Of a DNA stretch of 64,000 nucleotides, positions 1 to 64,000 are shown piece by piece (the stretch's first letter is position 1; each line of letters starts with the position of its first letter). The stretch comes from Limosilactobacillus reuteri (GTDB lineage: Bacteria > Bacillota > Bacilli > Lactobacillales > Lactobacillaceae), in contig NZ_CP059275.1 of assembly GCF_013694365.1 (NCBI RefSeq), forward strand, positions 1,550,001 through 1,614,000. Direction: 5' to 3'. The notes under the pieces are model-generated. The model searched no databases. It was not told where the DNA came from and was given only the letters and a program-made list of their open reading frames with translations. Both the position numbers and the translations under genes were made by a program.

Positions 1-1129
1 TGATGCTTCTGCAGCGATCATGGCTGATGCTTCAACAGGGCAAATTATCTATAAGCAAAATGTAGATAAGGCTCTTCCCGTGGCATCAATTACAAAATTA
101 TTAACTATTTTGGTAATAGAAGATGAAATCCAACAGAAGCAACTTTCATGGGATACTCAAGTAAAAATAACTCCTGAAATTGCGGCTATTTCTAATGATG
201 CTGCTTATTCTTCAATCGGACTAAAATCTGGTCAATCTTATTCAGTTCGGACATTAATCAATGCAGCCCTTGTAAAGTCAGCGGATGGGGCGACTGTCGC
301 ACTTGCAACAGCTACCGGGGATGGAACCGATGAATTTAATCTTAAAATGATGCAAAAAGCCAAAAAAATTGGAATGACTAAGACAAACATTGTGAATTCA
401 GTTGGATTAGATAATGGAGATATGAAAAGTTTTAAGTTAGCGGATCTCCCTAATAATGCTGCTAATACGATGAGTGCACGTGATGTTGCTATTTTATCGC
501 AATACTTTGTAAAACATTATCCTGAACTTTTGCAAATTACAGCACAAAAAGAAGTAAAATTTCAAATAGCGAAAGATCAAGTTAAGACTGAAAAAAATCT
601 TAATAAGATGTTACCAGGAGAACAGTACGCTGTAAAAGGGGTAACGATTGATGGCTTGAAGACGGGGACTTCTGACAGTGCGGGAGCTTGTTTTGCAAGT
701 ACAGGTAAGTATCAAGGACATCGCATTATTACTGTTATTTTACATTCAAAAGGGAGCAATAAAGACAACCGATTTAAGGCTACGCAGGATTTATATGAGA
801 TCCTTAAGACAGAGGACCATTTACAAAAAATAAAAGTTCCATTATCAGTAACAACACGTAAAGTAGCTAATGGTGTTGAAAAAACAATGAAACTCACGCC
901 ACAATATGTAACTATTTGGAGTCCGTACGATACAAAAACGAATTATACAATTGGAACACAATATAAAAAGAAAAAACTAGAAGCACCTATTTGGAAAGGT
1001 GAACGTGTTGGCAACTTAAGGATAACGAGTGATCAATTAGAAACGCTTAATGGTGAACCATTAACTTACTCTCTATATAGTGCTAATGATGTTCGACGGG
1101 GAAACTTTTGGCAACGTCTTCTACATTAA
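1..1129 (+). CDS. dacA: D-alanyl-D-alanine carboxypeptidase, DacA/PBP5 type, 5' partial
   Basis: Serine DD-carboxypeptidase of the S11 family that trims the terminal D-Ala from peptidoglycan pentapeptides outside the cell. The reading frame is open from base 2, so the signal peptide and true start lie before the window; 375 residues remain. The active-site SxxK box is S-I-T-K at bases 86-97, S-A-D stands in the usual SxN position (near base 280), and K-T-G is at 659-667. The last ~100 residues fit the beta-rich PBP5 C-terminal domain. No C-terminal amphipathic anchor helix is obvious. Neighbouring genes are L,D-transpeptidases, which act on tetrapeptides that this enzyme can produce. Confidence 0.9.
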   Translation, partial: DASAAIMADASTGQIIYKQNVDKALPVASITKLLTILVIEDEIQQKQLSWDTQVKITPEIAAISNDAAYSSIGLKSGQSYSVRTLINAALVKSADGATVALATATGDGTDEFNLKMMQKAKKIGMTKTNIVNSVGLDNGDMKSFKLADLPNNAANTMSARDVAILSQYFVKHYPELLQITAQKEVKFQIAKDQVKTEKNLNKMLPGEQYAVKGVTIDGLKTGTSDSAGACFASTGKYQGHRIITVILHSKGSNKDNRFKATQDLYEILKTEDHLQKIKVPLSVTTRKVANGVEKTMKLTPQYVTIWSPYDTKTNYTIGTQYKKKKLEAPIWKGERVGNLRITSDQLETLNGEPLTYSLYSANDVRRGNFWQRLLH

Positions 1130-1711
1130 ATGAATAAAGAACTTAAATCGCTGCTTTTCATCTCAACTGGTCTATTCCTTATTTTTGTTCTAATTTTTAA
1201 TCTTTATACATATAATGCTGCTAGTTTTATTCCCCAAGCTAGAAAAACAAGTCAAATTCTTAGTCAAAATCGGCTTCGTGCTCCTAATATTCACCGTTCC
1301 TCTGAAAATTGGGCATACCCTAAGATCGGTAACGTTCCTATTGAATTGATCGCCATCAAACAAGCAAAAAGGATTCTAGTTATCAACTCAAATAAGCGCC
1401 AAGTTATTTACATTATTCACGCACAGATTAATCTACCAGCACAAAAAAATTCTTTCCGCTTACTTCACGCTCGGGGGCAGCAAATTTATCATATTAATGG
1501 TTCCCAGCAAGCCATCGCTAAGAATTGGTTAGGAATTACTAATGGGAACTACATTGAAACCCCCGTTACAGATATGAATAATCATCAGGTCTCACGAAAT
1601 CTACGAAAAGCACCCAAAATTGAAAATACTATCCAGGTGTCAATCCCCGATGCTAAATGGCTGCAAACTTTACCTGAAAACACACCCTTAATAGTTAAGG
1701 AGGACTATTAA
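1130..1711 (+). CDS. Catalytically degenerate YkuD/L,D-transpeptidase-like membrane protein
   Basis: 193 residues with an N-terminal membrane anchor (about 8-28) and an extracellular part. It resembles the L,D-transpeptidase at 1913-2569: both have an S-S-E ... Y-P linker, a strand like 'RQVIYIIHAQ' against 'SKVIYTMYST', and a near-identical tail ('VSIPDAKWLQ' against 'LSVPDAQWME'). The catalytic stretch S-H-G-C-I-R that should precede that tail is missing; 'KIENTIQ' stands there instead, and the protein has no cysteine. It is therefore probably a non-catalytic paralogue that binds peptidoglycan or a partner enzyme. Homology is read by eye; function is inference. Confidence 0.6.
   Translation: MNKELKSLLFISTGLFLIFVLIFNLYTYNAASFIPQARKTSQILSQNRLRAPNIHRSSENWAYPKIGNVPIELIAIKQAKRILVINSNKRQVIYIIHAQINLPAQKNSFRLLHARGQQIYHINGSQQAIAKNWLGITNGNYIETPVTDMNNHQVSRNLRKAPKIENTIQVSIPDAKWLQTLPENTPLIVKEDY
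1697..1703 (+). promoter_or_regulatory. Shine-Dalgarno for the gene at 1712
   Basis: AAGGAGG inside the last codons of the preceding gene, 8 bases before the ATG at 1712. It is one of the few joints in the window where a proper ribosome binding site precedes the next start, so these two genes are very likely true neighbours and translationally coupled. Confidence 0.75.
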
Positions 1712-1912
1712 ATGATTTCACGCCTAAAACATGGACGGTTTTTTAATCACTTACTTGGAAGTAATCTTATTTTGCTAATTATAATTAGCTTTTATAATCT
1801 TCTTACATACTTCATCCCATTAATCAAAATTTCAATCATTCAAATAATTTTATTCTTTCTAATAATTGACCTACTCTTGATTATCTTTAAGATTTTAGCG
1901 CTATACAATTAG
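1712..1912 (+). CDS. Small two-helix membrane protein next to L,D-transpeptidase paralogue
   Basis: 66 residues, dominated by two hydrophobic segments (about 16-36 and 42-62) with a short basic N-terminus (K, R, H rich) that suggests a cytoplasmic N-end. No recognisable domain. It shares general design with the 85-residue protein at 2570-2827: a leader, 'LLGSNLILL' against 'ILRANILFI', then a second helix ending in 'LLLIIFKIL' against 'ICLFFKFLL'. Each of the two follows a YkuD-type gene, suggesting a duplicated two-gene unit. Function unknown. Confidence 0.6.
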   Translation: MISRLKHGRFFNHLLGSNLILLIIISFYNLLTYFIPLIKISIIQIILFFLIIDLLLIIFKILALYN

Positions 1913-2569
1913 TTGAACTTACGAGTAAAGCATTGGATTTATGGAATATTTTGCTTATTAGTAGCAATAATTGCAATTGGTCCAGAATTACGTGCTACTT
2001 CGAATGCCCATCCCCAAAAAGCAGTAGTTGAATTGCAAGTAAAAGAAAAACCAACACAAGAAAAGAAAATCGATAATAGTGAAAGTCATATGCGAACCCC
2101 AATTGATTGGCATAAGTCCTCGGAAACAGTTCCGTATCCAGATTTGAATAAAGTGAAGGACTTTTGGATTAAAGTTGATTTAAAAAATAATCGGACATAT
2201 TTGTATGATGGTTCAAAAGTCATTTATACAATGTATAGCACAGGTGGAATTTATAAAAAGGATCCTAAAACTGGTAAACTGAAAAGTGTGACCCCGACAG
2301 GAACATTTTATGCTCAACAAGAGCGAGGAGATAGCTTCTTTAATCAATCGTTGAAAGAGGGAGCTAATTACTACGTTTCTTGGAAGAATCATGGAGAATA
2401 CTTGTTCCATAGTGTTCCGACTAAAGCAGATGGAAAATATAATGAACAAGAAGCTGCTAAACTTGGAAAAACACAGGGTTCTCACGGGTGTATTCGGCTT
2501 TCAGTGCCAGACGCTCAATGGATGGAAAAGAATTTGCCAGTTGGTACTAAGATTGAGATTGTCGGCTAA
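1913..2569 (+). CDS. L,D-transpeptidase, YkuD domain
   Basis: 218 residues, TTG start. An N-terminal membrane helix (about 8-26) is followed by a polar linker and a YkuD domain from about residue 85 to the end. The catalytic motif H-x...-S-H-G-C-I-R is present, with nucleophile Cys193. Such enzymes form 3-3 cross-links or attach molecules to peptidoglycan using tetrapeptide donors, on the outer face of the membrane. The start is taken because it gives a proper membrane anchor; a TTG start is less common. Compare the inactive paralogue at 1130-1711. Confidence 0.85.
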   Translation: MNLRVKHWIYGIFCLLVAIIAIGPELRATSNAHPQKAVVELQVKEKPTQEKKIDNSESHMRTPIDWHKSSETVPYPDLNKVKDFWIKVDLKNNRTYLYDGSKVIYTMYSTGGIYKKDPKTGKLKSVTPTGTFYAQQERGDSFFNQSLKEGANYYVSWKNHGEYLFHSVPTKADGKYNEQEAAKLGKTQGSHGCIRLSVPDAQWMEKNLPVGTKIEIVG

Positions 2570-2827
2570 ATGACATCATTTTTTTCATTCATATCAAATA
2601 TTTGGTCATATACCATCAACCATAAATGGTCAAAGGATATTTTACGAGCCAACATCCTTTTTATTCTTTTAGTTATTGTTTACGATCTTTTTCACTTTTC
2701 ATTAAAAATAATTAATTGGCGGATCTTTTTTAAAGTATTTCTGCTATTAAATATTTGTTTGTTTTTTAAGTTCCTTTTAGAGGAGTTCCTTTTAGATGGT
2801 ATTGATCGCTATTTAAGAACACGGTAA
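2570..2827 (+). CDS. Small two-helix membrane protein
   Basis: 85 residues with two hydrophobic helices (about 28-46 and 52-72) and charged ends, finishing in 'DRYLRTR'. No known domain. It follows the active L,D-transpeptidase just as the 66-residue protein follows the inactive one, which is the main clue to a role, perhaps as membrane partner of the transpeptidase. The likeness between the two small proteins is weak at sequence level and rests on length, helix layout and position. Confidence 0.55.
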   Translation: MTSFFSFISNIWSYTINHKWSKDILRANILFILLVIVYDLFHFSLKIINWRIFFKVFLLLNICLFFKFLLEEFLLDGIDRYLRTR

Positions 2828-4213
2828 ATGCATTCATATATTAAATACTGGATAGCAGGAATAGGAGCATTATTAATTATAATGATTGCGGGGATGACTG
2901 TTCACCAGAAAAATCATTTCAATAAAAACGTAACCATCAATAACATTGCCGTGGGAGGGCTAACAGCCAAGCAAGCTTTTGATAAGGTAAAGGGGACCTC
3001 AGGAGCAACCAAGGTATATGTTGACAATAAGCTAGTTTACCAAACTAAATCCATGCAGGCTAATTTTAGCAATAATGATGAACAAAAATTTAATCAAGCA
3101 CTGAAAAAGCAGTTTACATTTTTCCCATCATATAAAGCAACGAACTTATCAATAAAGCCAGATAACTTTGATCAAGATTCGTTTAATATTGCGAAAAACA
3201 AATTAACTAACGAGGTACATCAACTCAACACAAGTCGTAAAGCTCCCGTTGATGCTTACGCGGTCTACCAAAATGAGAAAGTTTCTGTAGTTCCTGCAGT
3301 TAAGGGTAATAAATATGATTTACAAAACGCTGTTAATCAACTAAATAATCAAGCTGGAAGTACTAAAATTAATATTACTTTACATAAGGAACAGCCGATT
3401 GCTGCAAATAGCAAAACCGTTAAGAATGAGGAAAAACAGTTAAATAAGTTAAAAGGGAAGAAAGTTACTTACCTCGTTCAAAATGAAAAGTATAACCTCA
3501 CTACCAATCAAATTATTACCCGGGCAACCTATCAAAACGGCAAGTATCATTTCGACACTACGGCCTTAAATAAACAAGTAAAGAAAATCAATGAGAAACA
3601 TGCAACTCTTGATAAGCCATTTAAATTTAGAACTCATTCTGGAGCAGAAATTACCACTACAGCTAATGGTTCCTATGGTTGGAAAATTAGCGAGAAAAAA
3701 GCTGGCAATTCATTAACTAAAGCAATTATCGATGGCCGCCAAGAAGTTGATGGCGAGCACGATATTGAAGGAAAAGGCTATAACACTGCTGGACTCGGCT
3801 ACAATGTTACATCCAATAATGGTATTGGCGACACTTATGCTGAGGTTTCATTAGCTGACCAACGAGCTTATTTCTACAAAGATGGTAAATGTGTCCTTGA
3901 AACAGATATCGTTAGTGGGACTAATAACGAAGGCAACAAAACGCCAAAGGGAGTCTGGTATATCATGTACCAACAAAGTCCTTCCATTCTCCGTGGACAA
4001 AACGATGACGGATCAAGTTATGCAAGTAAAGTTAATTATTGGTCGCCGTTTACTTTAACGGGATGTGGCTTCCACGATGCAAGTTGGCGTCATAATTGGT
4101 CCAAGACTGCTTACCTAAGCGATGGTTCGCACGGCTGTATTAATATGCAACCAAGCGTGGCTGGCCAAGCCTTCCATGATTTAAAACAAAATGAACCCGT
4201 TATTATTTATTAA
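2828..4213 (+). CDS. L,D-transpeptidase with N-terminal peptidoglycan-binding-like repeats
   Basis: 461 residues: one N-terminal membrane helix (about 8-25), two tandem regions resembling the PG_binding_4/VanW-associated domains (about 60-200 and 200-320), and a C-terminal YkuD catalytic domain from about 335. The motif 'DGSHGCINM' carries the predicted nucleophile Cys437, with an upstream H in the 'GFHDASWRHNW' stretch. Domain order matches the larger Firmicute L,D-transpeptidases involved in 3-3 cross-linking. It is the third YkuD-type gene within 3 kb. Confidence 0.87.
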   Translation: MHSYIKYWIAGIGALLIIMIAGMTVHQKNHFNKNVTINNIAVGGLTAKQAFDKVKGTSGATKVYVDNKLVYQTKSMQANFSNNDEQKFNQALKKQFTFFPSYKATNLSIKPDNFDQDSFNIAKNKLTNEVHQLNTSRKAPVDAYAVYQNEKVSVVPAVKGNKYDLQNAVNQLNNQAGSTKINITLHKEQPIAANSKTVKNEEKQLNKLKGKKVTYLVQNEKYNLTTNQIITRATYQNGKYHFDTTALNKQVKKINEKHATLDKPFKFRTHSGAEITTTANGSYGWKISEKKAGNSLTKAIIDGRQEVDGEHDIEGKGYNTAGLGYNVTSNNGIGDTYAEVSLADQRAYFYKDGKCVLETDIVSGTNNEGNKTPKGVWYIMYQQSPSILRGQNDDGSSYASKVNYWSPFTLTGCGFHDASWRHNWSKTAYLSDGSHGCINMQPSVAGQAFHDLKQNEPVIIY

Positions 4214-4385
4214 AGGGAGCGAGACAGAGGTCACTTGTGACTTCGTTTTTCGACGCGAAGCTAGCCTCTGGGAGCCCCCGCAAGCAACAATAGGCCTCTA
4301 GCGTTCGGTTTCCGGACGTTAGAGGCCATTATTGTACTGCGTATTTGCTTTTTATAAAAGTAACTTAACTTATGTCACAGTCCCT
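4214..4385 (+). repeat. Hairpin-forming dispersed repeat, copy 1
   Basis: 172 bp non-coding element related to 19496-19648. The ends are imperfect inverted repeats (AGGGAGCGAGAC at the left; the right end read backwards gives AGGGACTGTGAC). Inside are a small palindrome GTCACTTGTGAC and a strong stem of 14 bp with a 3-base loop (4295-4308 with 4312-4325, one G-U type mismatch). It also carries the phrase 'gtactgcgtatttgc' shared with copy 2. Looks like a MITE- or REP-like element; no coding potential. Confidence 0.8.
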
Positions 4386-5024
4386 ATGACTGATAAAATT
4401 GTTACTTCAGAAGAAATGCGACATTACGATTCTTACACCATTAATACAATTGGTATCCCTTCCCTTGTGTTAATGGAACGAGCTGCATTAGCCGTTCGTG
4501 ATGAAATTTTGCATGCTTTTCCAATCGCGCTAAAAGATGTGGTAGTAGTTGCCGGTAGTGGAAATAATGGCGGGGATGGAATAGCCATTGCTCGGTTGCT
4601 GCATCTTGCTGGTGTCCATGTAACAATCCTCAATATAGGTAATCCTAAACATGCGTCTGCTGAACACCAAACACAAGAAAAAATCGCGCAATATTATCAA
4701 ATTCCCGAAACCTCTGATCTCGCTGTCCTTAATAAGGCAACATTAATTGTCGATGCAATGTTTGGAATCGGAATTGATCGTGCAGTAAAAGGAGCTTATG
4801 CCGACGCGATTAATGCCATTAATAACACTGATGTAGTTGTCGTTGCAGTAGATATGCCATCAGGAATTAATACTGATACTGGAGAGGTAATGGGGACTGC
4901 CGTCAGAGCTACTACAACCGTAACTTTCGCCTATAATAAAGTTGGCTTAACCAAGAATGCCGGAAAAGATTACGCAGGAAATATTGTCGTCGCAAATGAT
5001 ATGGGAACCTATGCAGTAGACTGA
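4386..5024 (+). CDS. nnrE: NAD(P)H-hydrate epimerase
   Basis: 212 residues. Epimerises the R form of damaged, hydrated NAD(P)H to the S form so that a partner dehydratase can repair it; cytosolic. YjeF N-terminal (Rossmann-like) fold with 'VVAGSGNNGGDG' at about 55-66 and 'VVAVDMPSGINTDTGE' at about 157-172, both hallmarks. A longer reading from 4332 would translate the end of the repeat element, so the ATG at 4386 is chosen: the protein then begins MTDKIVTSEEMRHYD as family members do. No NnrD dehydratase partner lies in the window. Confidence 0.9.
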   Translation: MTDKIVTSEEMRHYDSYTINTIGIPSLVLMERAALAVRDEILHAFPIALKDVVVVAGSGNNGGDGIAIARLLHLAGVHVTILNIGNPKHASAEHQTQEKIAQYYQIPETSDLAVLNKATLIVDAMFGIGIDRAVKGAYADAINAINNTDVVVVAVDMPSGINTDTGEVMGTAVRATTTVTFAYNKVGLTKNAGKDYAGNIVVANDMGTYAVD

Positions 5025-5426
5025 GTGGAATTAACAACCAAATTATTTATAGATGTTAAAAATTTTGAAAAATACCAATCAATGTTAAAGTACCAAGTAC
5101 ACATTGAAGAAGAACGTCATGGTGATTATTGCTTACCAGGTTTTCCTGATCGTCACAATTTCCACCGCCTTCTCCGGATTTTACGTAAACATGATGACGG
5201 TTTAACTAGCAAACAACTAATTTACGACTTCGATTACCGGCCAAGTGACCTCGAAGATGCTACTAAAGCATTAGTAACAAACAATTTGTCAACTACTACC
5301 CCAATTAACGAGGAAGACTACAAAATTCAACTTAACACTGAAGGTATCGAAGTTGCTGATAATCTGCTAAAGCGCCGTGACAAAATTACTGAAGCTGCTT
5401 ACCACACATTAAGTGAAAATGAATAA
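5025..5426 (+). CDS. Winged-helix-like hypothetical protein
   Basis: 133 residues, GTG start, soluble. The middle, about 50-100, has a pattern like a winged helix of the PadR/MarR kind ('LLRILRKHDDGLTSKQLI ... DLEDATKALVTNNL'), followed by a short strand pair and a C-terminal helix. No catalytic motif. It may be a DNA-binding regulator, but nothing in the sequence identifies a target. Its real neighbours cannot be trusted because spacing in this window is artificial. Confidence 0.5.
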   Translation: MELTTKLFIDVKNFEKYQSMLKYQVHIEEERHGDYCLPGFPDRHNFHRLLRILRKHDDGLTSKQLIYDFDYRPSDLEDATKALVTNNLSTTTPINEEDYKIQLNTEGIEVADNLLKRRDKITEAAYHTLSENE

Positions 5427-6704
5427 ATGGATTATCAAAAGCCAAAGGGAACTGCAGATATCTTACCAGGAACTACAAGTATTTGGGAAAAAGTAGAACA
5501 AAATGCGCGCGAAGTTTTTAACCAGTTTGGATATCGCGGAATTCGAACACCGATGTTTGAAGATTACCATGTTTTTTCACGGAATGTGGGCGATACTTCA
5601 GATATTGTTGAAAAAGAAATGTACGATTTTCATGATAAAGGTGATCGTCATATTGCATTGCGTCCTGAGGGAACAGCTGGAGTAGTACGGGCTTATGTAG
5701 AAAATAAGCTCTATGGTCCAGAATATCCTAAACCTTATAAAGTTTATTACATGGGGCCAATGTTTCGGTATGAACGTCCACAATCAGGGCGGCAACGTGA
5801 ATTCCACCAAATTGGGGTTGAGGCATTAAACAATGAGTCACCACAGATTGATGTGGAAGTTATTTCAATGGCAATGGCGCTCTTTAAAAAGTTTGGAGTG
5901 CCAAATGTTAAATTGGTTATTAATACCCTTGGGGATAAAAAAGTTCGTGAAGATTACCGTGAAGCATTAATTAACTACTTGAAGCCTCACTATGATGAAT
6001 TGAGTAAAGACTCTCAAGAACGTTTATATAAGAATCCATTGCGTGTACTTGATAGTAAGGATGAAGGCGATAAGAAGATTGTTGCAGAAGCTCCATCAAT
6101 CCTTGATTATCTTGATGAAGAGTCACAAGCTTACTTTGACGAAGTGCAGGCCTTATTAAATAAATTAGGAATTGATTTTGAAATTGATACCAATATGGTG
6201 CGGGGTCTAGATTACTATAACCATACTATTTTTGAAATTATGTCAGACTCACCAGTATTTGGTGGTGGGTACACGACTGTTTGTGCAGGAGGCCGTTATA
6301 ATGGGTTGATTAGCCAACTTGGTGGCCCTGAAGAAGGTGGAATTGGCTTCGGAATGGGTGTTGAACGATTAATGCTCTTACTCCAAGAAGAAAATCCTGC
6401 ATTTGCTCCTCAAGACCAACTAGATGTCTTCTTTGCTAGTGCAGATCAGCAAGGGGATGAAATGGCATTTGAAGTCCTCAGTAAAATTCGTCAGCAAGGG
6501 ATTGTGGCTGACAAAGATTACAGTGGGGTAAAAGTTGGTAAGCAGATCAAAGAAGCTTTCCGTCGTAATGCGAAGTACTTTGCAGTGTTTGGCGCTCGTG
6601 AAGTTGAAGAAGGAACTTTCCAATTAAAGAATGCTGCTACTAAGGATGCAACAACTATTAAAATTAGCGATTTTGTAGCAAATCCAGCAGAATATTTAAA
6701 ATAA
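5427..6704 (+). CDS. hisS: Histidyl-tRNA synthetase
   Basis: 425 residues, full length for the bacterial enzyme. Class II synthetase that charges tRNA-His. Motif 2 ('YYMGPMFRYERPQSGRQREFHQ' region, about 108-129), the histidine-binding 'RGLDYYNHTIFE' (about 259-270) and motif 3 'GIGFGMGVERLML' (about 307-319) are all intact, followed by the C-terminal anticodon-binding domain. Starts MDYQKPKGTADILPG, the usual opening. In lactobacilli hisS is normally followed by aspS; aspS is not next here. Confidence 0.97.
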   Translation: MDYQKPKGTADILPGTTSIWEKVEQNAREVFNQFGYRGIRTPMFEDYHVFSRNVGDTSDIVEKEMYDFHDKGDRHIALRPEGTAGVVRAYVENKLYGPEYPKPYKVYYMGPMFRYERPQSGRQREFHQIGVEALNNESPQIDVEVISMAMALFKKFGVPNVKLVINTLGDKKVREDYREALINYLKPHYDELSKDSQERLYKNPLRVLDSKDEGDKKIVAEAPSILDYLDEESQAYFDEVQALLNKLGIDFEIDTNMVRGLDYYNHTIFEIMSDSPVFGGGYTTVCAGGRYNGLISQLGGPEEGGIGFGMGVERLMLLLQEENPAFAPQDQLDVFFASADQQGDEMAFEVLSKIRQQGIVADKDYSGVKVGKQIKEAFRRNAKYFAVFGAREVEEGTFQLKNAATKDATTIKISDFVANPAEYLK

Positions 6705-7901
6705 ATGGAACAGCAAACGGTAAAATTAAAATGGGTTGCCCTTGCAAGTCTGTTAAACAACACAGGGGCAGCTTTTTTATGGCCGCTTACAACTATGTAT
6801 CTTCATAATTACCTTGGCCAAACTCTGACGACTGCTGGCTTTGTGATGTTAATAATGTCCATTGCCATGATGATGGGAAATTATTTGGGAGGGTGGTTAT
6901 TTGACCATTGGAAACAATATCAAACAGCTATTTTAGGAGTTAGCCTCTCAACACTAGCAATATTCTTATTGATCTTTATTCATGATTGGCCATGGTATGC
7001 TGTCCTAATTACAATTAACAGCTTTGGGGATGGAATCAATGCCACGATTGTTAATTCTTATGGGACGTTGGTCAGTGATCATTCTTCCCGTTATGTCTTT
7101 AATTATATTTATATGGCCTTTAATATCGGAGTTGTGATTGGAACGTTGCTGGTGGGTGTTCTTTTACCGATTAGTGTAGTGGTAGTTTTTGCTGTAGCAA
7201 CAATCTTTTATGCCTTGTTAATGCTAGTAGTTGTTTTAACATTTAATGTGGCTGTAGATGCAATTAAAAATAATTCAGAGATCCAAGAACACTATCATGT
7301 TTCCCGCCAATTGCATTCGCGATGGATCGTCTTGGTTTGGTTTATTCTCATAAACTATATTACGGTTCATTTAAGTTATTCCTTATGGGAAAGTGTAATG
7401 GCAGTCCATATGACAAACATGGGGATTCCATTCTATGCCTATAGTATGTTATGGACATTGAATGGGGTGCTAATTATTATCGGACAACCACTTGTTAATA
7501 AGTTAAGTCCCTATGTTCGTTTATCAACGCAAATTATTGTGGGAATCTTTATTTTTGCCCTATCTTTCCTCCTGTTAATTTTTGCTCGGACTTTGACAGC
7601 ATTTGTTATTGATTTTGTAATCTTAACAATTGGTGAAATGACTAGTTTTGCTGGCCTACCTGCTTGGATTGCTCAACTGACTAATGTCGACGAAGCTGGG
7701 CATTACCAAGGATTGCTTAATATTATGATGTCGGTTGGACGTGCGATTGGTCCATTGTACGGTGGATTTGTCATTGAAAAAGGAAGTTATCAATTTTTAT
7801 TTATTTCAGTCTTTTGTCTAATGACCGGTACTCTGATTATTATCTGTCTTTATTTATGGTATTTACACCGAGTTCAACGGCGGCTTAATTTAGATAAATG
7901 A
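6705..7901 (+). CDS. MFS transporter, multidrug-efflux-like
   Basis: 398 residues with about twelve predicted membrane helices and a central cytoplasmic loop near 185-205, the normal layout of a major facilitator. The motif A-like stretch between helices 2 and 3 is 'GNYLGGWLFDHW' (about 58-69). Substrate cannot be read. Its final ATGA (7898-7901) is repeated as the first four bases of the next gene, so in the genome the two genes overlap by 4 bp and are probably co-translated. Confidence 0.8.
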   Translation: MEQQTVKLKWVALASLLNNTGAAFLWPLTTMYLHNYLGQTLTTAGFVMLIMSIAMMMGNYLGGWLFDHWKQYQTAILGVSLSTLAIFLLIFIHDWPWYAVLITINSFGDGINATIVNSYGTLVSDHSSRYVFNYIYMAFNIGVVIGTLLVGVLLPISVVVVFAVATIFYALLMLVVVLTFNVAVDAIKNNSEIQEHYHVSRQLHSRWIVLVWFILINYITVHLSYSLWESVMAVHMTNMGIPFYAYSMLWTLNGVLIIIGQPLVNKLSPYVRLSTQIIVGIFIFALSFLLLIFARTLTAFVIDFVILTIGEMTSFAGLPAWIAQLTNVDEAGHYQGLLNIMMSVGRAIGPLYGGFVIEKGSYQFLFISVFCLMTGTLIIICLYLWYLHRVQRRLNLDK

Positions 7902-8522: not shown

Positions 8523-8708
8523 ATGGACAATTTGAGTGAGCTTGCTCAAGGATTGATTAACTTTGAGCGCGAAAATGACTTAAATGATAATGAAGTTGCT
8601 TTCGGCAGTCATTTATCTGTTGAACGAATTCACGAAATTAAATCATCCAATACTCCAGTAACTTCAGAAGAAGTCGAATTGCTTCAACGGTTCATGCAAA
8701 GTAAGTAA
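8523..8708 (+). CDS. Small acidic protein, possibly LBP_cg2779-like
   Basis: 61 residues, acidic, predicted all-helical. The pattern 'LNDNEVAFGSHLSVERIHEIKSS' looks like a short helix-turn-helix, but the protein is too small and acidic to call it a DNA-binding regulator. Likely a member of a short lactobacillus family of unknown role; family name from memory and uncertain. Confidence 0.5.
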   Translation: MDNLSELAQGLINFERENDLNDNEVAFGSHLSVERIHEIKSSNTPVTSEEVELLQRFMQSK

Positions 8709-34606: not shown

Positions 34607-35599
<993 letters not shown>

Positions 35600-39386: not shown

Positions 39387-39406
39387 TTATTGTCCTGGAC
39401 TTTTTT
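39373..39406 (+). terminator. Intrinsic terminator after ltrA
   Basis: CAGGACAA (39373-39380) pairs with TTGTCCTG (39390-39397) and is followed by GGAC and six T (39401-39406). It overlaps the last codons of the ltrA frame. One of the few terminators kept in the window, because this stretch was not trimmed. Confidence 0.8.
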
Positions 39407-55518: not shown

Positions 55519-56712
55519 ATGTCAAGTGTTAAAGATGTTGCTCATGGGAGTAGGCGAAATGCTTATACTGCATTGATCCTCTCCACGCTTGCAATGATTG
55601 TTTGTTTTATGTCGTGGTCTAACTTTGCGCCACTTGCATCCCAAATTGCTGAGATGTTCAATTTGGATGTATCGCAGCGAACGTTGTTATTAGCGACACC
55701 AGTCCTTTTGGGATCAATTATGCGAATTCCAGTAGGGATCTTAAGTGATCGTTACGGCGGGAAAAAGGTTTATTTGATCTTAATGGCCTTTATTTTGATT
55801 CCACTAATTATGATTCCACATGTTCATTCATTTGGAATGTTGCTCTTTGCCGCATTGCTTGTTGGGATGTCAGGAACATCGTTTGCCGTTGGGGTTTCTT
55901 ATGCTTCAGTTTGGTTTCCGCCAGAACAGCAAGGACTAGCCCTGGGAATCGTTTCAATGGGGAATATGGGGAATGCTGTGGCTGCCATGACTTTACCTTA
56001 TATTTCCAAGGCAGCGGGATTTGATAGTGTTTACTACTTTTTGATTATTCTTACAGTGATCTTTGGTGTTCTTTTCGCAGTTTTTTGTAAAGAAATGCCA
56101 GTTGATAAAAGTAAAACGATTAAGGGCGCATTGTCTGTTGCCGCGGACAGTGGAACATGGTATCTATCACTATTTTACTTCTTGACTTTTGGCTTATTTG
56201 TTGCATTTACAAACTTAACGCCAACATTCTTGACAGGGATGTTTCATTATACTCCTGTTACTGCCGGCCTTTATTCAGCATTATTTGCTTTCGTATGTAC
56301 GTTAGTTCGTCCATTTGGTGGTTACCTTGCTGATAGAAAACGCCCCATGGCATTATTACAATGGGTCTTTGTAGCAATCGTTATTTTTGCTATTTGGATT
56401 ATGCTTAGTTTTCACAATCAATTCATGTTTATCGCAGGGATTGTTTTGGTTGGTCTTTCTGCAGGGATTGGTAACGGGGTTGTCTTCAAAATGGTTCCAT
56501 ATGTATCCCAAGGTAATACGGGAGCGGTTACTGGTTTCGTTGGAGCAGTTGGTGGCTTAGGAGGTTTCTTTCCACCACTAATTATTGGTTATATTTACCA
56601 ATGGACAGGTAGTTATGAGCTTGGAATTGCACTCTTAGCGTTAACCGGTGTAATTTGCTGGTTTGCTCTATGGAAACATTACATTCATGGTGATGTTCAC
56701 ATCGTTAAATAA
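55519..56712 (+). CDS. narK: Nitrate/nitrite transporter NarK
   Basis: 397 residues, twelve helices, NNP family of major facilitators. Loop 2-3 'GILSDRYGGKKVY' (about 73-85), the glycine-rich nitrate signature 'GIVSMGNMGNAVAAMT' (about 147-162) and its second-half partner 'GLSAGIGNGVVFKMVP' (about 315-330). Imports nitrate and/or exports nitrite for NarGHI. Confidence 0.94.
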   Translation: MSSVKDVAHGSRRNAYTALILSTLAMIVCFMSWSNFAPLASQIAEMFNLDVSQRTLLLATPVLLGSIMRIPVGILSDRYGGKKVYLILMAFILIPLIMIPHVHSFGMLLFAALLVGMSGTSFAVGVSYASVWFPPEQQGLALGIVSMGNMGNAVAAMTLPYISKAAGFDSVYYFLIILTVIFGVLFAVFCKEMPVDKSKTIKGALSVAADSGTWYLSLFYFLTFGLFVAFTNLTPTFLTGMFHYTPVTAGLYSALFAFVCTLVRPFGGYLADRKRPMALLQWVFVAIVIFAIWIMLSFHNQFMFIAGIVLVGLSAGIGNGVVFKMVPYVSQGNTGAVTGFVGAVGGLGGFFPPLIIGYIYQWTGSYELGIALLALTGVICWFALWKHYIHGDVHIVK

Positions 56713-56958
56713 ATGGAAATTAACGTTAAATTATTTGCGTTTTTACAAGATCAGTTAGGACCATCTATTACTCTTGATGTTGCTAATCCTATTCGAGTAG
56801 ATGACCTTCTTAAGCAAATTAGCCAGCGGGCACCACAACTGACGTCAACTTTAGCAAATTCGCGGATAGCAATTAATCAAGAATTTGTTAACGCAGATAT
56901 AATTACCTTAGAGGCCGATGATGAAATCGCAATCATTCCGCCGGTTAGTGGTGGCTAG
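56713..56958 (+). CDS. moaD: Molybdopterin synthase sulfur carrier subunit
   Basis: 81 residues, ubiquitin-like fold ending 'IAIIPPVSGG', the double glycine that is adenylated by MoeB and thiocarboxylated. Works with MoaE. Joint to moaE (TAGTTG) with GGTGG in front is probably native. Confidence 0.93.
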   Translation: MEINVKLFAFLQDQLGPSITLDVANPIRVDDLLKQISQRAPQLTSTLANSRIAINQEFVNADIITLEADDEIAIIPPVSGG

Positions 56959-57360
56959 TTGCATTATTTACGAATAAGCGATGAGCCCATCGATGTAAGT
57001 GAGATGTATAAACAGCTTGTTGCTCCAGAATACGGAGGAATTGATATGTTTGTCGGCACTGTTCGTCAATGGACTGGCGAGATCGAGACTACTAAGATTG
57101 AGTATTCAGCTTATCATCCCATGGCGGAAAAACAATTAGAAAAAATTGCAGCACCGATTGAAGAACAAGGAGGACGCGTTGTTGTCGCTCACCGGACTGG
57201 CGAATTGACGCTTACTGATATCGCGGTATTTGTAGGTGTGGCGGCTCCGCATCGTGCAGAAGCATTCAAATGGTGCCAACATGTGATTGATACACTTAAG
57301 CATGAAGTACCAATCTGGAAAAAGGAATATGATACAGATAAGGTAAGGTGGGGAAACTAA
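56959..57360 (+). CDS. moaE: Molybdopterin synthase catalytic subunit
   Basis: 133 residues, TTG start. Converts cyclic pyranopterin monophosphate to molybdopterin using MoaD sulfur. Conserved 'GAVDMFVGTVR'-like 'GGIDMFVGTVRQWTG' (about 27-41), 'AHRTGELTLTDIAVFVGVAA' (about 75-94), and catalytic lysines in 'HEVPIWKKEYD'. Ends with AAGGTGGGG before the next start. Confidence 0.93.
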   Translation: MHYLRISDEPIDVSEMYKQLVAPEYGGIDMFVGTVRQWTGEIETTKIEYSAYHPMAEKQLEKIAAPIEEQGGRVVVAHRTGELTLTDIAVFVGVAAPHRAEAFKWCQHVIDTLKHEVPIWKKEYDTDKVRWGN

Positions 57361-57810
57361 ATGAATACTTTAATTCTCTACGATACACTCTACGGTCATA
57401 ACTTCGAATTAGGAAACTTTATTCACCAAACTATCCTTCCGTCTGCCATTTTTCTTTCTTTTAAGGAGGCCTTACAAGTAAAATTGGATAGTATTGACTT
57501 GCTTATCCTTTGTCCCTGTACTTATGGCGAAGGACAACTCACAGCCTCTGAAGAAAAGTTCTATAATTATCTTTGTCAGTTTTCTGTCCCGAGGCTGGTT
57601 TATTATATTGCAGGTGTAGGAGATAAAAATTTTGGTCCAGCAAAATTTGCTAACGCAGTAAATATTTTTAATTACCAATTGCGTCAACATGGTGCTTCAC
57701 CATTAGCGTCTTCATTAAAAATCGACTATGAAGACCTGCCAACCGCTCAGCAAACAGTTACTGATGAAATCACTAATTTCTTAAGAAAAGGAAGAGATTC
57801 TAATTACTAA
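57361..57810 (+). CDS. Flavodoxin-like protein
   Basis: 149 residues with a flavodoxin-like plan: 'TLILYDTLYGHNFELG' at the phosphate-binding position, though the usual T/S-x-T-G-N-T loop is altered, 'DLLILCPCTYGEGQL' for the 50s loop, and 'VYYIAGVGDKNFGPAKFANA' for the 90s loop. Could carry electrons, perhaps for cofactor or quinone chemistry in this island. FMN binding is likely but weakened by the loose P-loop. Confidence 0.65.
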   Translation: MNTLILYDTLYGHNFELGNFIHQTILPSAIFLSFKEALQVKLDSIDLLILCPCTYGEGQLTASEEKFYNYLCQFSVPRLVYYIAGVGDKNFGPAKFANAVNIFNYQLRQHGASPLASSLKIDYEDLPTAQQTVTDEITNFLRKGRDSNY

Positions 57811-58761
57811 TTGGTTATTGTTACAATCGTTCTCGCTCTTTCTTGTGGGCGGATCTATTATTCACCAATCATAATCTTTCAAACGCTACTTCATCCCCAA
57901 AGCAATCCAGCCGCAGCAAACATTATTTTTAGCCTTCGTCTTCCTAGAATCATCGGTGCGCTGTTAATTGGTGCTGGTCTAGCAATGGCTGGTTGTTCTT
58001 TCCAGAGTGTTTTTCATAATCCTTTGGTCTCGCCTGATATTTTAGGGGTGTCGTATGGTTCGGCCGCCGGGGCTGCTAGTGCAATTCTCTTAGGCTATGG
58101 CATTGGACTTACTCAGCTTTTTGCTTTTGTTGGTGGAATTATTGCGGTCAGTTTAACTTTATTGATTGCCCAAATCCTTCATCAGCGCGGAACCTTAATT
58201 CTAGTATTAGCCGGAATTGTGATTTCTGGTTTTATGCAGGCATTAGTTGGATTACTAAAGTACATTGCTGATCCGGATTCACAATTACAAAGTATTGTCT
58301 ACTGGCAACTAGGCAGTTTAGCAAAAGTTGATTTTTCAAATATTATCGCTGTCCTTCCCTTTTTGCTTGTAGGTACAATAATTCTATTTGTCCTTCGCTG
58401 GCATATGACAATTCTTTCACTTGGCAACCAACAAGCGCGTCTAGAAGGAATTAATGTGGATATGGAACAACTACTGATAATTACCGCCAGCACGTTTTTA
58501 ACCGCTGCAACAGTTTGTCTTAGCGGAAATATTGGTTGGATTGGACTTGTAATTCCGCATATTGCTCGACTTTTAGTTGGGTATAATACAAAAGAAACAC
58601 TTCCCCTTGCAGCAGTTATTGGTGCGCTATTTTTGTTAATTGTCGATACAATGGCTCGATCCCTATCGGCAGGGGAAATCCCGTTAAGTATCCTAACTGG
58701 CTTCATCGGCGCACCCTTATTTGTTTATATTCTAATTAAGAAGAAGGTGCAATTAAATTGA
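57811..58761 (+). CDS. FecCD-type ABC transporter permease
   Basis: 316 residues, TTG start, about nine helices. Family marks: 'LRLPRIIGALLIGAGLAMAG' (about 42-61), 'NPLVSPDILGVSYGSAAGA' (about 71-89), 'GNIGWIGLVIPHIARLL' (about 237-253). The N-terminus begins inside the first helix, so the true start may lie a little upstream, within the previous gene. Imports iron-siderophore, cobalamin or, in MolBCA-type systems, molybdate. The last TTGA recurs as the start of the ATPase gene. Confidence 0.88.
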   Translation: MVIVTIVLALSCGRIYYSPIIIFQTLLHPQSNPAAANIIFSLRLPRIIGALLIGAGLAMAGCSFQSVFHNPLVSPDILGVSYGSAAGAASAILLGYGIGLTQLFAFVGGIIAVSLTLLIAQILHQRGTLILVLAGIVISGFMQALVGLLKYIADPDSQLQSIVYWQLGSLAKVDFSNIIAVLPFLLVGTIILFVLRWHMTILSLGNQQARLEGINVDMEQLLIITASTFLTAATVCLSGNIGWIGLVIPHIARLLVGYNTKETLPLAAVIGALFLLIVDTMARSLSAGEIPLSILTGFIGAPLFVYILIKKKVQLN

Positions 58762-59538
58762 TTGAAAGTCCTCGAAGTTAATAACCTTAGTTTTGCCTAT
58801 TCAAAAACACATCCGGTCTTTCACAACGTTAACTTTAGTCTCGAAGCTGGAGAAGTATTTACTATCCTTGGCCCTAACGGTGTCGGAAAATCAACTCTTC
58901 TCCACTGTTTAGTCGGACTTTTGACACCAAATGAAGGAACCGTAATAGTTAACGGAAAAGAGCTTGGAAATTTGAAGCACAAAACGCTTGCACAACAAGT
59001 TGCCTATGTTCCTCAGGATTATCATATTAATTCCAATCTCACAGTACTTGATTATTTATTAACTGGTCGTGCACCTTACCTTTCTTTTCTCCAAACTCCG
59101 CATCAGAAAGACGTTCAACTTGCTGAAACCTATTTACAACGTTTTCATCTTTCACCTTTTCGTGATCACCCCTTTATCTCATTAAGCGGTGGTCAACAGC
59201 AACTAATTACGATTATTCGAGCCCTACTTCAAGAACCGCGCTTGTTAATTCTCGATGAACCTATGGCTGCCCTTGATTTAAGTCGACAGTACGAAATATT
59301 AAAACTAATTCAAGACTTAGCCCAGCAAAAAATCACCATTATTCTTACTACTCACCTTCCAGACCATGCTTTAATGCTACCGACTACAATCGGTCTTCTT
59401 GATTCAAAAGGTTCCATGGTTACTGGATCATGTGAAGAGTTAATGTCAACTAAACAGCTAGAAAGGATCTATCATGTTCCACTAACTCTTACTTATCTAC
59501 CTGATCTTCAACGATATACTTGTCAAATTAAGCTCTAA
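58762..59538 (+). CDS. ABC transporter ATPase, FecE/BtuD type
   Basis: 258 residues, TTG start. Walker A 'GPNGVGKST' (about 38-46), signature 'LSGGQQQL', Walker B 'LLILDEPMAALD', H-loop 'ILTTHLPDHA'. Overlaps the permease gene by 4 bp in the genome. Energises the FecCD permease. Confidence 0.9.
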   Translation: MKVLEVNNLSFAYSKTHPVFHNVNFSLEAGEVFTILGPNGVGKSTLLHCLVGLLTPNEGTVIVNGKELGNLKHKTLAQQVAYVPQDYHINSNLTVLDYLLTGRAPYLSFLQTPHQKDVQLAETYLQRFHLSPFRDHPFISLSGGQQQLITIIRALLQEPRLLILDEPMAALDLSRQYEILKLIQDLAQQKITIILTTHLPDHALMLPTTIGLLDSKGSMVTGSCEELMSTKQLERIYHVPLTLTYLPDLQRYTCQIKL

Positions 59539-60558
59539 ATGAAAAAATTATTGAAGCTTTTAGCAATCTTTTTACTGTTTAGTAGTATTATTAGCAGTTC
59601 GGCGATGGCTAGTTCAACAAGAACCATAACGGATATGACAGGGGAGAAAATAAAGATCCCAAAGAAAGTTAACCGCGTTGCTGACTTATGGCATGCTAAT
59701 AATCAGGTTGTGCTGTTATTAGGAGGACAAAATAAGCTAGTTGCCACTACTCCTCTTGTTAAGAAACAACATTGGTTCACAATGGTAGATCCAAAAATTG
59801 CTAAAGTTGCTGCGCCATTAGCAGGCAATCAAATTCAAGTTGAAGAATTAGTAAAAATAAAACCGGACGTTGTAATTGCTTCCGATCAAGCTCAAATAAA
59901 GGAATCCCGTCAAGCAAAATTACCAACAGTTAACGCAATGTATACTGATTTTGCTGGGTTAAAGAAGTCGGTTACATTAACTGCAGAAATTTTAGGGGGA
60001 AATTCTCCAAAGATTGCTCGGCAATACAATAAAGAATTAACAAACAACATTAATCTTGTTAAGCAGCATTTGAAGAGCCGAAAATCAACACCAACGGTTC
60101 TTCATATTGTTAATGCAACAGATCTTACCAAGGTTGACGGACAAAAAACAATTGTTAACGAATGGATTAAACTAGCAGGTGGAAAGAATGCTATTTCTAA
60201 AAAGGGAAATCAAATTTCAGTTACGCCTGAAGAATTGATTAAAGCGAATCCAGATGTAATTATCGTTGGTAGTACATCTACTGCCCAAGCGCGAAAAGCG
60301 TTACGTGCTAACAGTCAGCTAAGTCAATTGAAGGCTGTACGCAAAAACAAAGTATACGGAAATCCTCAAGGGACCTTCCCATGGGATCGTTATAGTGCAG
60401 AAGAAGCACTTCAAGTCTTATGGGCAGCTAAGACTCTTCATCCCCAAGAAATGAAGAATATTAACATGGTCTCTGAAGTTCAAAAATTTTATCAAAAATA
60501 CTACCACTACAATTTAACAGTTAAACAAGCAAAGCAAATTTTAGCTGGTGAAAATTAG
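59539..60558 (+). CDS. FecB/BtuF-type substrate-binding protein
   Basis: 339 residues with a signal peptide (basic start, hydrophobic core about 5-22, 'SSAMASS' cleavage zone). Class III binding-protein fold; 'KPDVVIASDQAQ' and 'NPDVIIVGSTSTAQ' mark its two lobes. The protein has no cysteine, so no lipobox: unlike most Gram-positive binding proteins it is not a lipoprotein, and may stay anchored by an uncleaved signal. Ligand unknown; the island's need for molybdenum makes molybdate a serious option beside iron chelates. Confidence 0.82.
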   Translation: MKKLLKLLAIFLLFSSIISSSAMASSTRTITDMTGEKIKIPKKVNRVADLWHANNQVVLLLGGQNKLVATTPLVKKQHWFTMVDPKIAKVAAPLAGNQIQVEELVKIKPDVVIASDQAQIKESRQAKLPTVNAMYTDFAGLKKSVTLTAEILGGNSPKIARQYNKELTNNINLVKQHLKSRKSTPTVLHIVNATDLTKVDGQKTIVNEWIKLAGGKNAISKKGNQISVTPEELIKANPDVIIVGSTSTAQARKALRANSQLSQLKAVRKNKVYGNPQGTFPWDRYSAEEALQVLWAAKTLHPQEMKNINMVSEVQKFYQKYYHYNLTVKQAKQILAGEN

Positions 60559-60695
60559 AAATAAAATGGTGGATTATAGAATGAAGTTAGCCACCCAGTT
60601 GGTGGTAAATAAAAAACGCCATTCGGCGTGACATCAGGTATCATATTAAGTGAACCAAACCTATATGAAAGGATGTCCGTCAAATGACGCACTGT
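60559..60695 (+). mobile_element. Insertion-element debris with hairpins
   Basis: 137 non-coding bases. Two small palindromes are seen: CCACCCAGTTGGTGG and ACGCCATTCGGCGT; read on the opposite strand the second is followed by a T run, as in a terminator. A short frame MTHC starts at 60684 and runs into the transposase fragment. Probably the end of another mobile element fused to IS30 debris. Confidence 0.5.
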
Positions 60696-61190
60696 CATAC
60701 CTCAGGTCACTTTGAAGCAGATACAGTTTTATCTGGAAAGCGTAAAGGTCAAGCAATAGCTACGTTTGTCGAGCGTAAGAGTCGTCTTATCATCGTTAAA
60801 CGGCTTCAGGGACGAGATAGCACCTCAATGACCAAGGCCATTTTAGAATTAGCTAACCAGTTAGAAGATAATCTCAAGGCCCTTACTGTTGACCATGGGA
60901 AAGAATTCGCTAACTACAAGCTAATTGAAGAGCAGGCCAGGATTCCCCTCTACATTGCGCATGCTTATTCTCCACATGAACGGGGCAGTAATGAGAATCG
61001 CAACCGAGTACTACGACGCTTTATCCCCAAAGGTCAACCGATTGAGGAAATCACTGATGATGAGTTAATTCAAATTAACTGGTATTTGAACTCCAGGCCA
61101 CTCAAATGTTTAAACTGGCGCACACCAATTGAGATCTTTTTGCGTAATCTGCGTCACTAACTTTGTTCAAGTTATTTCTTGCAATCTGCC
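60696..61190 (+). mobile_element. IS30-family transposase remnant, first copy, with right end
   Basis: Codes for 154 residues of the catalytic domain of an IS30 transposase to a TAA at 61158-61160: 'HFEADTVLSGKRKGQAIATF' (first Asp), 'LTVDHGKEFANYKLI' (second Asp) and 'HERGSNENRNRVLRRFIPKG' (Glu), so the DDE triad is present. The N-terminal HTH half is missing. Bases 61161-61190 are probably the element's right end (CTTTGTTCAAGTTATTTC...). Not mobile by itself. Confidence 0.8.
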
Positions 61191-61655
61191 CATACCTCAG
61201 GTCACTTTGAAGCAGATACAGTTTTATCTGGAAAGCGTAAAGGTCAAGCAATAGCTACGTTTGTCGAGCGTAAGAGTCGTCTTATCATCGTTAAACGGCT
61301 TCAGGGACGAGATAGCACCTCAATGACCAAGGCCATTTTAGAATTAGCTAACCAGTTAGAAGATAATCTCAAGGCCCTTACTGTTGACCATGGGAAAGAA
61401 TTCGCTAACTACAAGCTAATTGAAGAGCAGGCCAGGATTCCCCTCTACATTGCGCATGCTTATTCTCCACATGAACGGGGCAGTAATGAGAATCGCAACC
61501 GAGTACTACGACGCTTTATCCCCAAAGGTCAACCGATTGAGGAAATCACTGATGATGAGTTAATTCAAATTAACTGGTATTTGAACTCCAGGCCACTCAA
61601 ATGTTTAAACTGGCGCACACCAATTGAGATCTTTTTGCGTAATCTGCGTCACTAA
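61191..61655 (+). pseudogene. IS30 transposase remnant, second written copy
   Basis: 465 bases identical to 60696-61160. It begins at the exact base where homology to the transposase begins (CAT ACC TCA), without any start codon, and ends at its stop. A true tandem repeat would not be trimmed so neatly to coding limits, so this is most likely the same DNA written once as element and once as gene. Confidence 0.75.
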
Positions 61656-63152
61656 TTGAAGTTTAGTGAATTAGGCTTATCCGATAGCCTATTAAAAGCA
61701 ATCAAACGGAGCGGATACGAAGAAGCAACACCAATCCAAGAACAAACGATTCCAATGGTTCTTGAAGGTAAGGATGTTATTGGGCAAGCACAAACCGGGA
61801 CTGGTAAGACGGCTGCTTTTGGATTGCCAATTATTGAAAACGTTGATACTGAAAATCTCAATATTCAAGCAATTATCATTTCACCAACACGTGAATTAGC
61901 AATCCAGACTCAAGAAGAACTTTATCGTCTTGGTAAAGATAAACATGTTCGCGTGCAAGTAGTATATGGTGGGGCAGATATTCGGCGCCAAATTAAGAGC
62001 TTGAAACAACACCCACAAATTCTCGTGGGGACCCCTGGACGGTTACGTGACCATATTAACCGTCATACAGTTAAACTTGACCACATTAAGACCCTTGTCC
62101 TCGATGAAGCAGATGAAATGCTAAACATGGGATTCTTAGAGGATATTGAATCAATCATCAAGGAAACACCAGATGATCGGCAAACATTGCTCTTCTCAGC
62201 AACCATGCCACCAGAAATCAAGCGGATTGGAGTTCAATTTATGTCTGATCCGGAAACTGTGCGGATCAAGGCCAAAGAATTGACTACTGACTTAGTTGAT
62301 CAGTACTATATTCGCGCGCGTGACTATGAAAAGTTTGACATCATGACCCGTTTAATTGATGTTCAAGATCCTGACTTAACAATTGTCTTTGGTCGGACAA
62401 AGCGGCGGGTAGATGAATTGTCGAAGGGCTTGATTGCGCGTGGCTACAATGCAGCTGGTATTCATGGTGACCTTACTCAAGATAAGCGTTCTAAGATCAT
62501 GTGGAAGTTTAAGAACAATGAACTTGATATCTTAGTTGCAACAGATGTGGCTGCTCGGGGCTTAGACATTTCCGGGGTTACGCATGTTTATAATTATGAT
62601 ATTCCATCTGACCCAGACAGCTATGTTCACCGGATTGGCCGAACAGGACGGGCCGGACATCACGGGGTATCTTTAACCTTTGTTACCCCAAATGAGATGG
62701 ATTACCTTCATGAGATTGAAAAATTAACCCGGGTACGGATGCTGCCACTTAAGCCACCAACAGCTGAAGAAGCATTTAAGGGTCAAGTTGCCTCAGCCTT
62801 TAATGATATCGATGAATTAATCGCGCGGGATTCAACTGATCGTTATGAAGAAGCCGCTGAAAAGCTACTAGAAACTCATAATGCAACTGATCTGGTAGCA
62901 GCATTGTTAAATAACATGACGAAGGAAGCGGCCAGTGAAGTTCCAGTTAAGATTACTCCTGAACGTCCTCTCCCACGGCGTAACAAGCGGAATAACCGTA
63001 ATGGCAACCGAAATAATTCGCATGGTGGCAACCACTACCGGCGTAAGAATTTCCGCCGTCACCAACATGGTGGTGGTCACCGAAATGATAACCATGGAAA
63101 GAGCCATTCCAGTCGCCATGCATTTAATATCCGTCATCGAAAAGAAGATTAA
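61656..63152 (+). CDS. cshA: DEAD-box RNA helicase CshA
   Basis: 498 residues, TTG start giving 'LKFSELGLSDSLLKAIKRSG' as in family members. Q motif, 'AQTGTGKTA' (about 47-55), 'PTRELA', 'DEAD', 'SAT', 'HRIGRTGRAG' all intact. The C-terminus (from about 430) is rich in Asn, His, Arg and Gly and binds RNA. Part of the RNA degradosome and cold response. In lactobacilli it commonly lies just downstream of murF. Confidence 0.95.
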   Translation: MKFSELGLSDSLLKAIKRSGYEEATPIQEQTIPMVLEGKDVIGQAQTGTGKTAAFGLPIIENVDTENLNIQAIIISPTRELAIQTQEELYRLGKDKHVRVQVVYGGADIRRQIKSLKQHPQILVGTPGRLRDHINRHTVKLDHIKTLVLDEADEMLNMGFLEDIESIIKETPDDRQTLLFSATMPPEIKRIGVQFMSDPETVRIKAKELTTDLVDQYYIRARDYEKFDIMTRLIDVQDPDLTIVFGRTKRRVDELSKGLIARGYNAAGIHGDLTQDKRSKIMWKFKNNELDILVATDVAARGLDISGVTHVYNYDIPSDPDSYVHRIGRTGRAGHHGVSLTFVTPNEMDYLHEIEKLTRVRMLPLKPPTAEEAFKGQVASAFNDIDELIARDSTDRYEEAAEKLLETHNATDLVAALLNNMTKEAASEVPVKITPERPLPRRNKRNNRNGNRNNSHGGNHYRRKNFRRHQHGGGHRNDNHGKSHSSRHAFNIRHRKED

Positions 63153-64000
63153 ATGAAAATGAAATTAGCGGAAATTGCCAAGGCGATCAACGCACAAAAT
63201 GACATTGAACAATGGAAAGACGTAGAAGTGACTAGTGTGTCATTTGACAGTCGACACTTAGATCAAGGGAGCTTATTTGTTCCATTGCAAGGTGCCCAAG
63301 ACGGCCACCAATACGTACCGAGTGCTTTTACCAATGGTGCAGTAGCTAGTTTATGGGCTAGTGACCATGAGATAACGGATCAGACGCACCCGCTATTAGT
63401 CGTTAGTGATCCACTAGCGGCCCTTCAACAACTAGGGAAGTACTACTTGTATAAGATCAATCCGATTGTTGTTGCAGTTACAGGCAGTAATGGGAAGACG
63501 ACGACTAAAGATATGATTGCGTCAATCTTAAGTACGCAGTTTAATGTCGCGAAGACATATGCTAATTTTAATAATGAGATTGGGGTTCCAGTAACTCTTC
63601 TTAACATGGAGTCTAATACCGAAGCAGTGGTAGTTGAGATGGGCATGGACCGTTTTGGTCAGCTTGACTTCTTAAGTAAGCTTGTAAATCCTGACATTGC
63701 CGTTATTACAATGATTGGGGAAGCACATATCGAATTCTTCGGGACTCGTGATAAGATTGCTGATGCAAAGATGGAAATTACCCATGGCCTAAAGGAAGAT
63801 GGAACACTAGTATTTAATGGGGATGAACCATTATTAGAGGAACGGGTAAAAGATCTTGCCCAACGACAGATGCGCTTTGGTCGGCAACTAAGCAATAATT
63901 TGTATGCAACAAGTGTCCGCGATGAACCACGGCAGTTATCATTTACCGTCAACGAATGGCCAGATGAAGAATTCACTATCCCAATGGTTGGTGAATACAA
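63153..64000 (+). CDS. murF: UDP-MurNAc-tripeptide-D-Ala-D-Ala ligase, 3' partial
   Basis: First 282 codons, open to the window end; the full enzyme has about 450 residues. Adds D-Ala-D-Ala to UDP-MurNAc-tripeptide, last cytoplasmic step of the stem peptide. Mur N-domain 'SVSFDSRHLDQGSLFVPLQG' (about 29-48), ATP P-loop 'VTGSNGKTTTKDM' (about 109-121), 'YANFNNEIGVPVTLL', and 'EMGMDRFGQLDFL'. Confidence 0.95.
   Translation, partial: MKMKLAEIAKAINAQNDIEQWKDVEVTSVSFDSRHLDQGSLFVPLQGAQDGHQYVPSAFTNGAVASLWASDHEITDQTHPLLVVSDPLAALQQLGKYYLYKINPIVVAVTGSNGKTTTKDMIASILSTQFNVAKTYANFNNEIGVPVTLLNMESNTEAVVVEMGMDRFGQLDFLSKLVNPDIAVITMIGEAHIEFFGTRDKIADAKMEITHGLKEDGTLVFNGDEPLLEERVKDLAQRQMRFGRQLSNNLYATSVRDEPRQLSFTVNEWPDEEFTIPMVGEY

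Follow-up and report, generated by a model that had tools for sequence, protein, structure and literature searches.

A Limosilactobacillus genome record in which a 64-kb window consists of annotated features joined end to end

Gene and repeat content of the window

The window analysed here is a stretch of 64,000 bases, positions 1550001 to 1614000 of a genome record made up of one 2,085,667-bp contig. This record was rated at 100% completeness and 0.96% contamination, and its gene content is complete as judged by marker genes. The list of open reading frames for the window gives a single coding chain on the plus strand, in which start codons nearly always come directly after the preceding stop (e.g. 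stop and start at 1129|1130, 1711|1712, 1912|1913 and 2569|2570). Tiling of the window, with a few entries of this list swapped for likelier ones, gave 75 CDS, and 68 of the 74 neighbouring pairs meet at exact joints, the start following the stop with zero bases in between and always on the plus strand; the remaining six pairs have repeat or insertion-element blocks between them. Bases outside CDS amount to 1,803 of 64,000, namely base 1 and six blocks defined by the tiling (4214-4385, 18669-18919, 19496-19648, 39353-39830, 40059-40185 and 60559-61178). No tRNA genes were found in the 64-kb window, and a search of it against Rfam gave no match at gathering score. The plus-strand chain of butt-joined genes noted in the initial annotation was thus borne out, its count of about seventy being corrected to 75 CDS; the blocks at repeats and IS debris, where that annotation allowed for gaps, are joined features in their own right and not leftover gaps.

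Six butt-joined CDS on the plus strand (1-4213) open the window, from a D-Ala-D-Ala carboxypeptidase gene cut by the window edge to an L,D-transpeptidase gene; their counterparts in the related genome G034 lie, in record order, on strands -, +, +, -, + and +. A 172-bp dispersed repeat (4214-4385) stands as a separate feature between two CDS. It has 20 matches in its own record, itself included, and many copies in G034, one of which, covering 95 bp of the repeat, lies at the corresponding place (1903415-1903509). The next 16 CDS (4386-18668, plus strand) are again butt-joined, with mixed strands in G034 and spacers of 1 to 570 bp that are dropped from the record, and are followed by two repeat pieces (18669-18794 and 18796-18919), the first with several copies in G034 and the second with one match there. 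At its left joint, the plus-strand CDS that the tiling places next (18920-19495) shows no clear start codon; a TTG lies at 18926. The last 40 bases of this CDS (19456-19495) are the reverse complement of 18880-18919, a pattern that overlap between a minus-strand gene and a repeat feature without strand would produce. A further dispersed repeat (19496-19648), with several matches in G034, is of the same kind as that at 4214-4385; repeats of this kind measure 150-175 bp, the record containing about 20 copies and G034 many. Beyond it lie a short plus-strand CDS of the MerR family (19649-19810, 53 aa), which is probably truncated, and 23 butt-joined plus-strand CDS (19811-39352) whose order is opposite to that in G034 and whose native strands are mixed.

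An insertion-element piece, the left part of an IS110-type element, is present at 39353-39830 as a repeat feature, with six matches of 454-478 bases in genome G037 and one more in its own record. The start of the IS110 transposase gene, from its ATG, is then written a second time on the plus strand (39831-40058), as seen from the sequence repeat with 39603-39830, and neither copy has a stop, the two breaking off at the same base in the way that a contig end would produce. A short multi-copy piece of 127-128 bp (40059-40185) has many matches. The 22 butt-joined plus-strand CDS that follow (40186-60558) comprise genes for nitrate reductase, molybdenum cofactor synthesis, a two-component system and an iron-type ABC transporter, and a search of 40186-60185 in G034 gave a single good match (40186-41076) plus one weak match. 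The accessory block at 41077-57360, with the four subunits of a respiratory nitrate reductase, ThiF/MoeB-type, MoeA, MobB and MoaE proteins and the two-component system, is nearly absent from G034; the transporter genes come after it (57811-60558). Nitrate reductase subunits are encoded in the order gamma, delta, beta, alpha, the reverse of the usual narGHJI. Nearby, the genes for a histidine kinase and a response regulator stand in the order usual for such pairs, so the CDS of 40186-60558 need not all be natively on the minus strand. Insertion-element pieces (60559-61655) with an rve-domain CDS (61179-61655) come next and hold 300 doubled bases (60696-60995 and 61191-61490). The window closes with the butt-joined CDS of a DEAD-box helicase and its neighbour (61656-63998, plus strand), the latter leaving the window.

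Order, strand and spacing in native relatives

The named records nearest to the window are Limosilactobacillus balticus, L. agrestis and L. reuteri, in agreement with the genus given in the initial annotation. A query of 10,272 bases from the window found some match in each of the 49 other genomes searched within the genus, and among the matches listed those in close relatives are gene-sized and lie on both strands. Joints were judged by comparison with relatives at 93-98% identity. At cut-offs of at least 80% coverage and at least 85% identity, 44 of the 75 CDS mapped to the stretches fetched from G034, with a mean identity of 95.4% (91-98% for the main gene matches), and the other 31 did not map to these stretches. 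Forty-one joints were testable, both genes being native neighbours in G034, and at none of them is the native gap zero: three pairs overlap (-8, -4 and -1), the others are 1 to 1359 bases apart, and the median of all is 106. The spacer absent from the record at these joints sums to 6,690 bp relative to G034. In record orientation, the native strand pairs are ++ at 7 joints, -- at 16, +- at 8 and -+ at 10, with a strand switch at 18 of the 41, whereas the record has all of these genes on the plus strand.

Native contigs gave the same result. On the nearest, CAMLUN010000025.1 (98.0% mean identity over 13 genes), 0 of 12 gaps are zero and the strand switches four times, and the four native contigs L042-L045, of which it is one, show no zero gap at any of their testable joints (12, 14, 6 and 14). 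Neighbours that are natively on the minus strand appear in reversed order in the record, each gene turned to sense. Gene order of the relatives is kept within blocks; that of G034 rises across 1-18668 of the window and falls across 19811-38461, and the change between 18668 and 19811, in a run of repeats, may mark either a contig end or a true rearrangement. The initial annotation had proposed that the window represents annotated features placed end to end instead of native DNA, and had suggested a mapping to Limosilactobacillus genomes. Run on these relatives, the mapping agrees with that proposal: genes map singly, intergenic DNA is skipped and many genes lie on the opposite strand.

Identity to G034 differs between parts of the record. 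In a stretch sampled elsewhere (L006, record 440001-460000), it falls from 97-100% in the initial 10.7 kb to about 94-99% in the remainder, above the 95.4% mean of the window. Judged from sequence identity, this pattern is one of mosaic relatedness; region-dependent identity is also normal between strains.

Joints, doubled sequences and missing RNA elements across the record

Joints were counted where at least 60 open codons stand on either side of a stop-start junction. By this measure the window has 67 joints on the plus strand and none on the minus strand, and the 20 stretches of 20 kb sampled from this record (400 kb) have 353 and 5, respectively, with 10 to 34 plus-strand joints in 19 of the 20 stretches and only 2 in the final 20 kb of the record. 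Native DNA served as control: G034 and G036 together gave 0 plus-strand and 4 minus-strand joints in 230 kb, six named Limosilactobacillus loci 0 and 1 (102 kb), and 25 distant loci 8 and 5 (372 kb). A few zero-gap joints thus exist naturally, such as the 4 in G034 and G036. With about 0.5 of 2.09 Mb of the record read, all 20 sampled stretches across the contig are feature-joined, 19 as judged by their joints and the last by its doubled repeats.

In this last stretch (L021, record 2065668-2085667), 19,542 of 20,000 bases recur elsewhere in the sampled DNA at 95% identity or more, compared with 0, 1,215 and 351 of 20,000 in three other stretches of the record and 2,389 of 64,000 in the window. 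It contains 19 self-palindromes and 8 tandem doublets, against 3 and 2 in the other 19 stretches of the record together and none in 12 native stretches; the doublet counts are lower bounds, since the filter missed the window doublet 39603-39830/39831-40058. Small repeat-only contigs, each written as a repeat and then as a gene, would yield such a sequence. Group II intron pieces are also found in this stretch among the doubled repeats, as are a 5S rRNA in sense orientation and, after it, another in antisense.

Overlapping features are written twice. Within the window, the 8-base native overlap ATGAATAA is present both at the start of CDS 24248-25228 and at the end of CDS 25229-25948, and G034 and four native contigs have the same two genes overlapping by 8 bases. 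A tRNA search of the record gave 81 matches, of which 4 lie on the minus strand within repeat pieces. The tRNA genes abut base to base, and certain tRNA pairs occur elsewhere in the record once with their native spacer (L079 and L080 having them in antisense and L081 in sense) and a second time butted together. A spurious antisense CDS was considered as the source of the minus-strand tRNA pieces and was set aside, because inspection by eye found stops in the frames tried of L079 (1031-1189). An unstranded repeat feature fits these pieces better, since the same tRNA pairs with spacer are also found in L081. The record further holds three full-length 16S genes and five partial minus-strand 16S matches, two of these over the cut-off. 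Such partial antisense pieces come directly after full-length sense copies (L087-L091; record 1307737-1308050 and 2048165-2048368), and could be explained by a repeat feature as well as by a spurious antisense CDS.

Sequences that precede genes, and RNA elements of several kinds, are missing. A Shine-Dalgarno core (scored as GGAG, GAGG or AGGA) stands ahead of 2 of the 44 mapped genes in the window, compared with 35 of their 44 orthologs in G034, and was found at 133 of 2000 random window positions; the lack of ribosome binding sites remarked upon in the initial annotation is therefore real. For RNase P RNA, there was no match in the whole contig and one match in each of six relatives. No tmRNA was found above cut-off in the record, in which the search gave three weak matches, at least two of them at tRNA positions, whereas all six relatives have it above cut-off. 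The record likewise has no T-box leader above cut-off, with one weak match below it, as against 24 to 28 matches per relative. RNase P RNA, tmRNA and T-boxes are the kinds of element left out of a list of CDS, tRNA, rRNA and repeats, so their loss fits the joining of features, and it is not credible that a living relative should lack RNase P RNA.

Origin of the record and comparison with native genomes

The window has butt joints in place of native spacing, has lost native strand and carries a doubled overlap, and the record as a whole lacks RNA genes and leaders of the kinds that such a list leaves out. Almost certainly, the window is an artificial string, put together by computer from feature sequences of one L. 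reuteri-complex strain, probably in draft assembly, and the sampled stretches extend this to the contig as a whole. The finding is an artefact of data and not a matter of biology. Annotation of such an assembly would have covered CDS, tRNA, rRNA and repeat regions without strand, each feature would have been extracted in sense orientation and each repeat in the orientation of its contig, and the pieces would then have been joined without spacers in contig and coordinate order. We infer that the source was a draft of several contigs, that its annotator was RASTtk-like, as the kinds of features kept and dropped suggest, and that the joined string was then deposited as a genome.

A real chromosome that underwent extreme compaction, with its genes turned to one strand and its spacers lost, would also show the complete marker-gene content and intact coding frames that are observed. 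Such a chromosome would have had to lose its Shine-Dalgarno cores, to reverse the order of minus-strand neighbours while turning each gene and to double a native overlap, and it is refuted by the absence of an essential RNA gene, RNase P RNA (tmRNA being absent too), and by the normal spacing of relatives up to 98% identical; we regard it as practically inconceivable. It might instead be supposed that a file of CDS alone was concatenated, as the string is mostly CDS. Yet the chain also includes tRNAs (81 matches), the three full-length 16S genes and non-coding dispersed repeats, and the RNA genes and repeats refute this reading, which we consider extremely improbable.

Equally slight is the chance that the fault is confined to the window, as against the 10 to 34 joints in 19 of 20 stretches sampled from the record, the twentieth, at the record end, having 2 joints but consisting of doubled repeats, and the absence of RNA families from the whole contig. 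A composite reference, made from a pan-genome or from several strains, would accommodate both the regional variation in identity to G034 (91-98% in the window, 94-100% in L006) and the flip from rising to falling G034 order between 18668 and 19811. We nevertheless hold it to be very unlikely, given that contamination was rated at 0.96%, that order within blocks is that of the relatives, that a single draft assembly yields just such repeated copies and pieces cut off where contigs end, and that such variation in identity is normal between strains. Joined features from one draft assembly thus remain the preferred origin.

Operons, strand bias, promoters, spacing, ribosome binding sites or riboswitches read from this record would be false, and the apparent absence of RNase P RNA and tmRNA would lead to a false inference about the biology of the organism. 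Protein content and coarse gene order are usable. The quality scores (100% completeness, 0.96% contamination) do not expose the fault, and simple detectors of such records would be the density of stop-start joints, the balance of strands and the presence of RNase P RNA. Among the papers listed, a literature search gave no earlier report to the point on records joined from features in this way, which cannot show that none has been printed.

Within the set of genomes compared, the record stands as the sole genome of its species, and this bears on G022, a genome that is 75% complete and assigned to another species of the genus. G022 matches window positions 20735-31006 at 96-100% identity among the gene matches listed, and gave two weak matches only to L006; the usual species line is drawn at 95% identity. 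With its spacers gone and its strands scrambled, the record may align to G022 over a smaller fraction than native DNA would, and it is conceivable, if rather doubtful, that a feature-only string serving as sole genome helped to create a false species split from G022. The two are possibly one species counted twice.

The record can be set beside two kinds of known material. Native genomes of the L. reuteri complex (G034, CAMLUN010000025.1, L. balticus BG-AF3-A, L. agrestis WF-MT5-A and L. reuteri WF-AA1-C) share its block order, with genes at 93-98% mean identity, and unlike the record they carry these genes on both strands and with native spacers. RNase P RNA, tmRNA and T-boxes are all present in G034, in contrast to the record, which is without them above cut-off. 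As to the feature list, repeat regions are present as pieces in the record and RNase P RNA and tmRNA are absent; RASTtk calls repeat regions and is not known to call tmRNA or RNase P RNA, and other pipelines could yield the same list. In a table of one paper on a RASTtk-annotated genome, repeat regions are given beside ORFs, rRNA and tRNA (PMC12581176). The record chain is made of the same kinds of features (CDS, tRNA, rRNA and repeat region) as a feature export of the RASTtk/PATRIC type, and a tool of this type may have been used.
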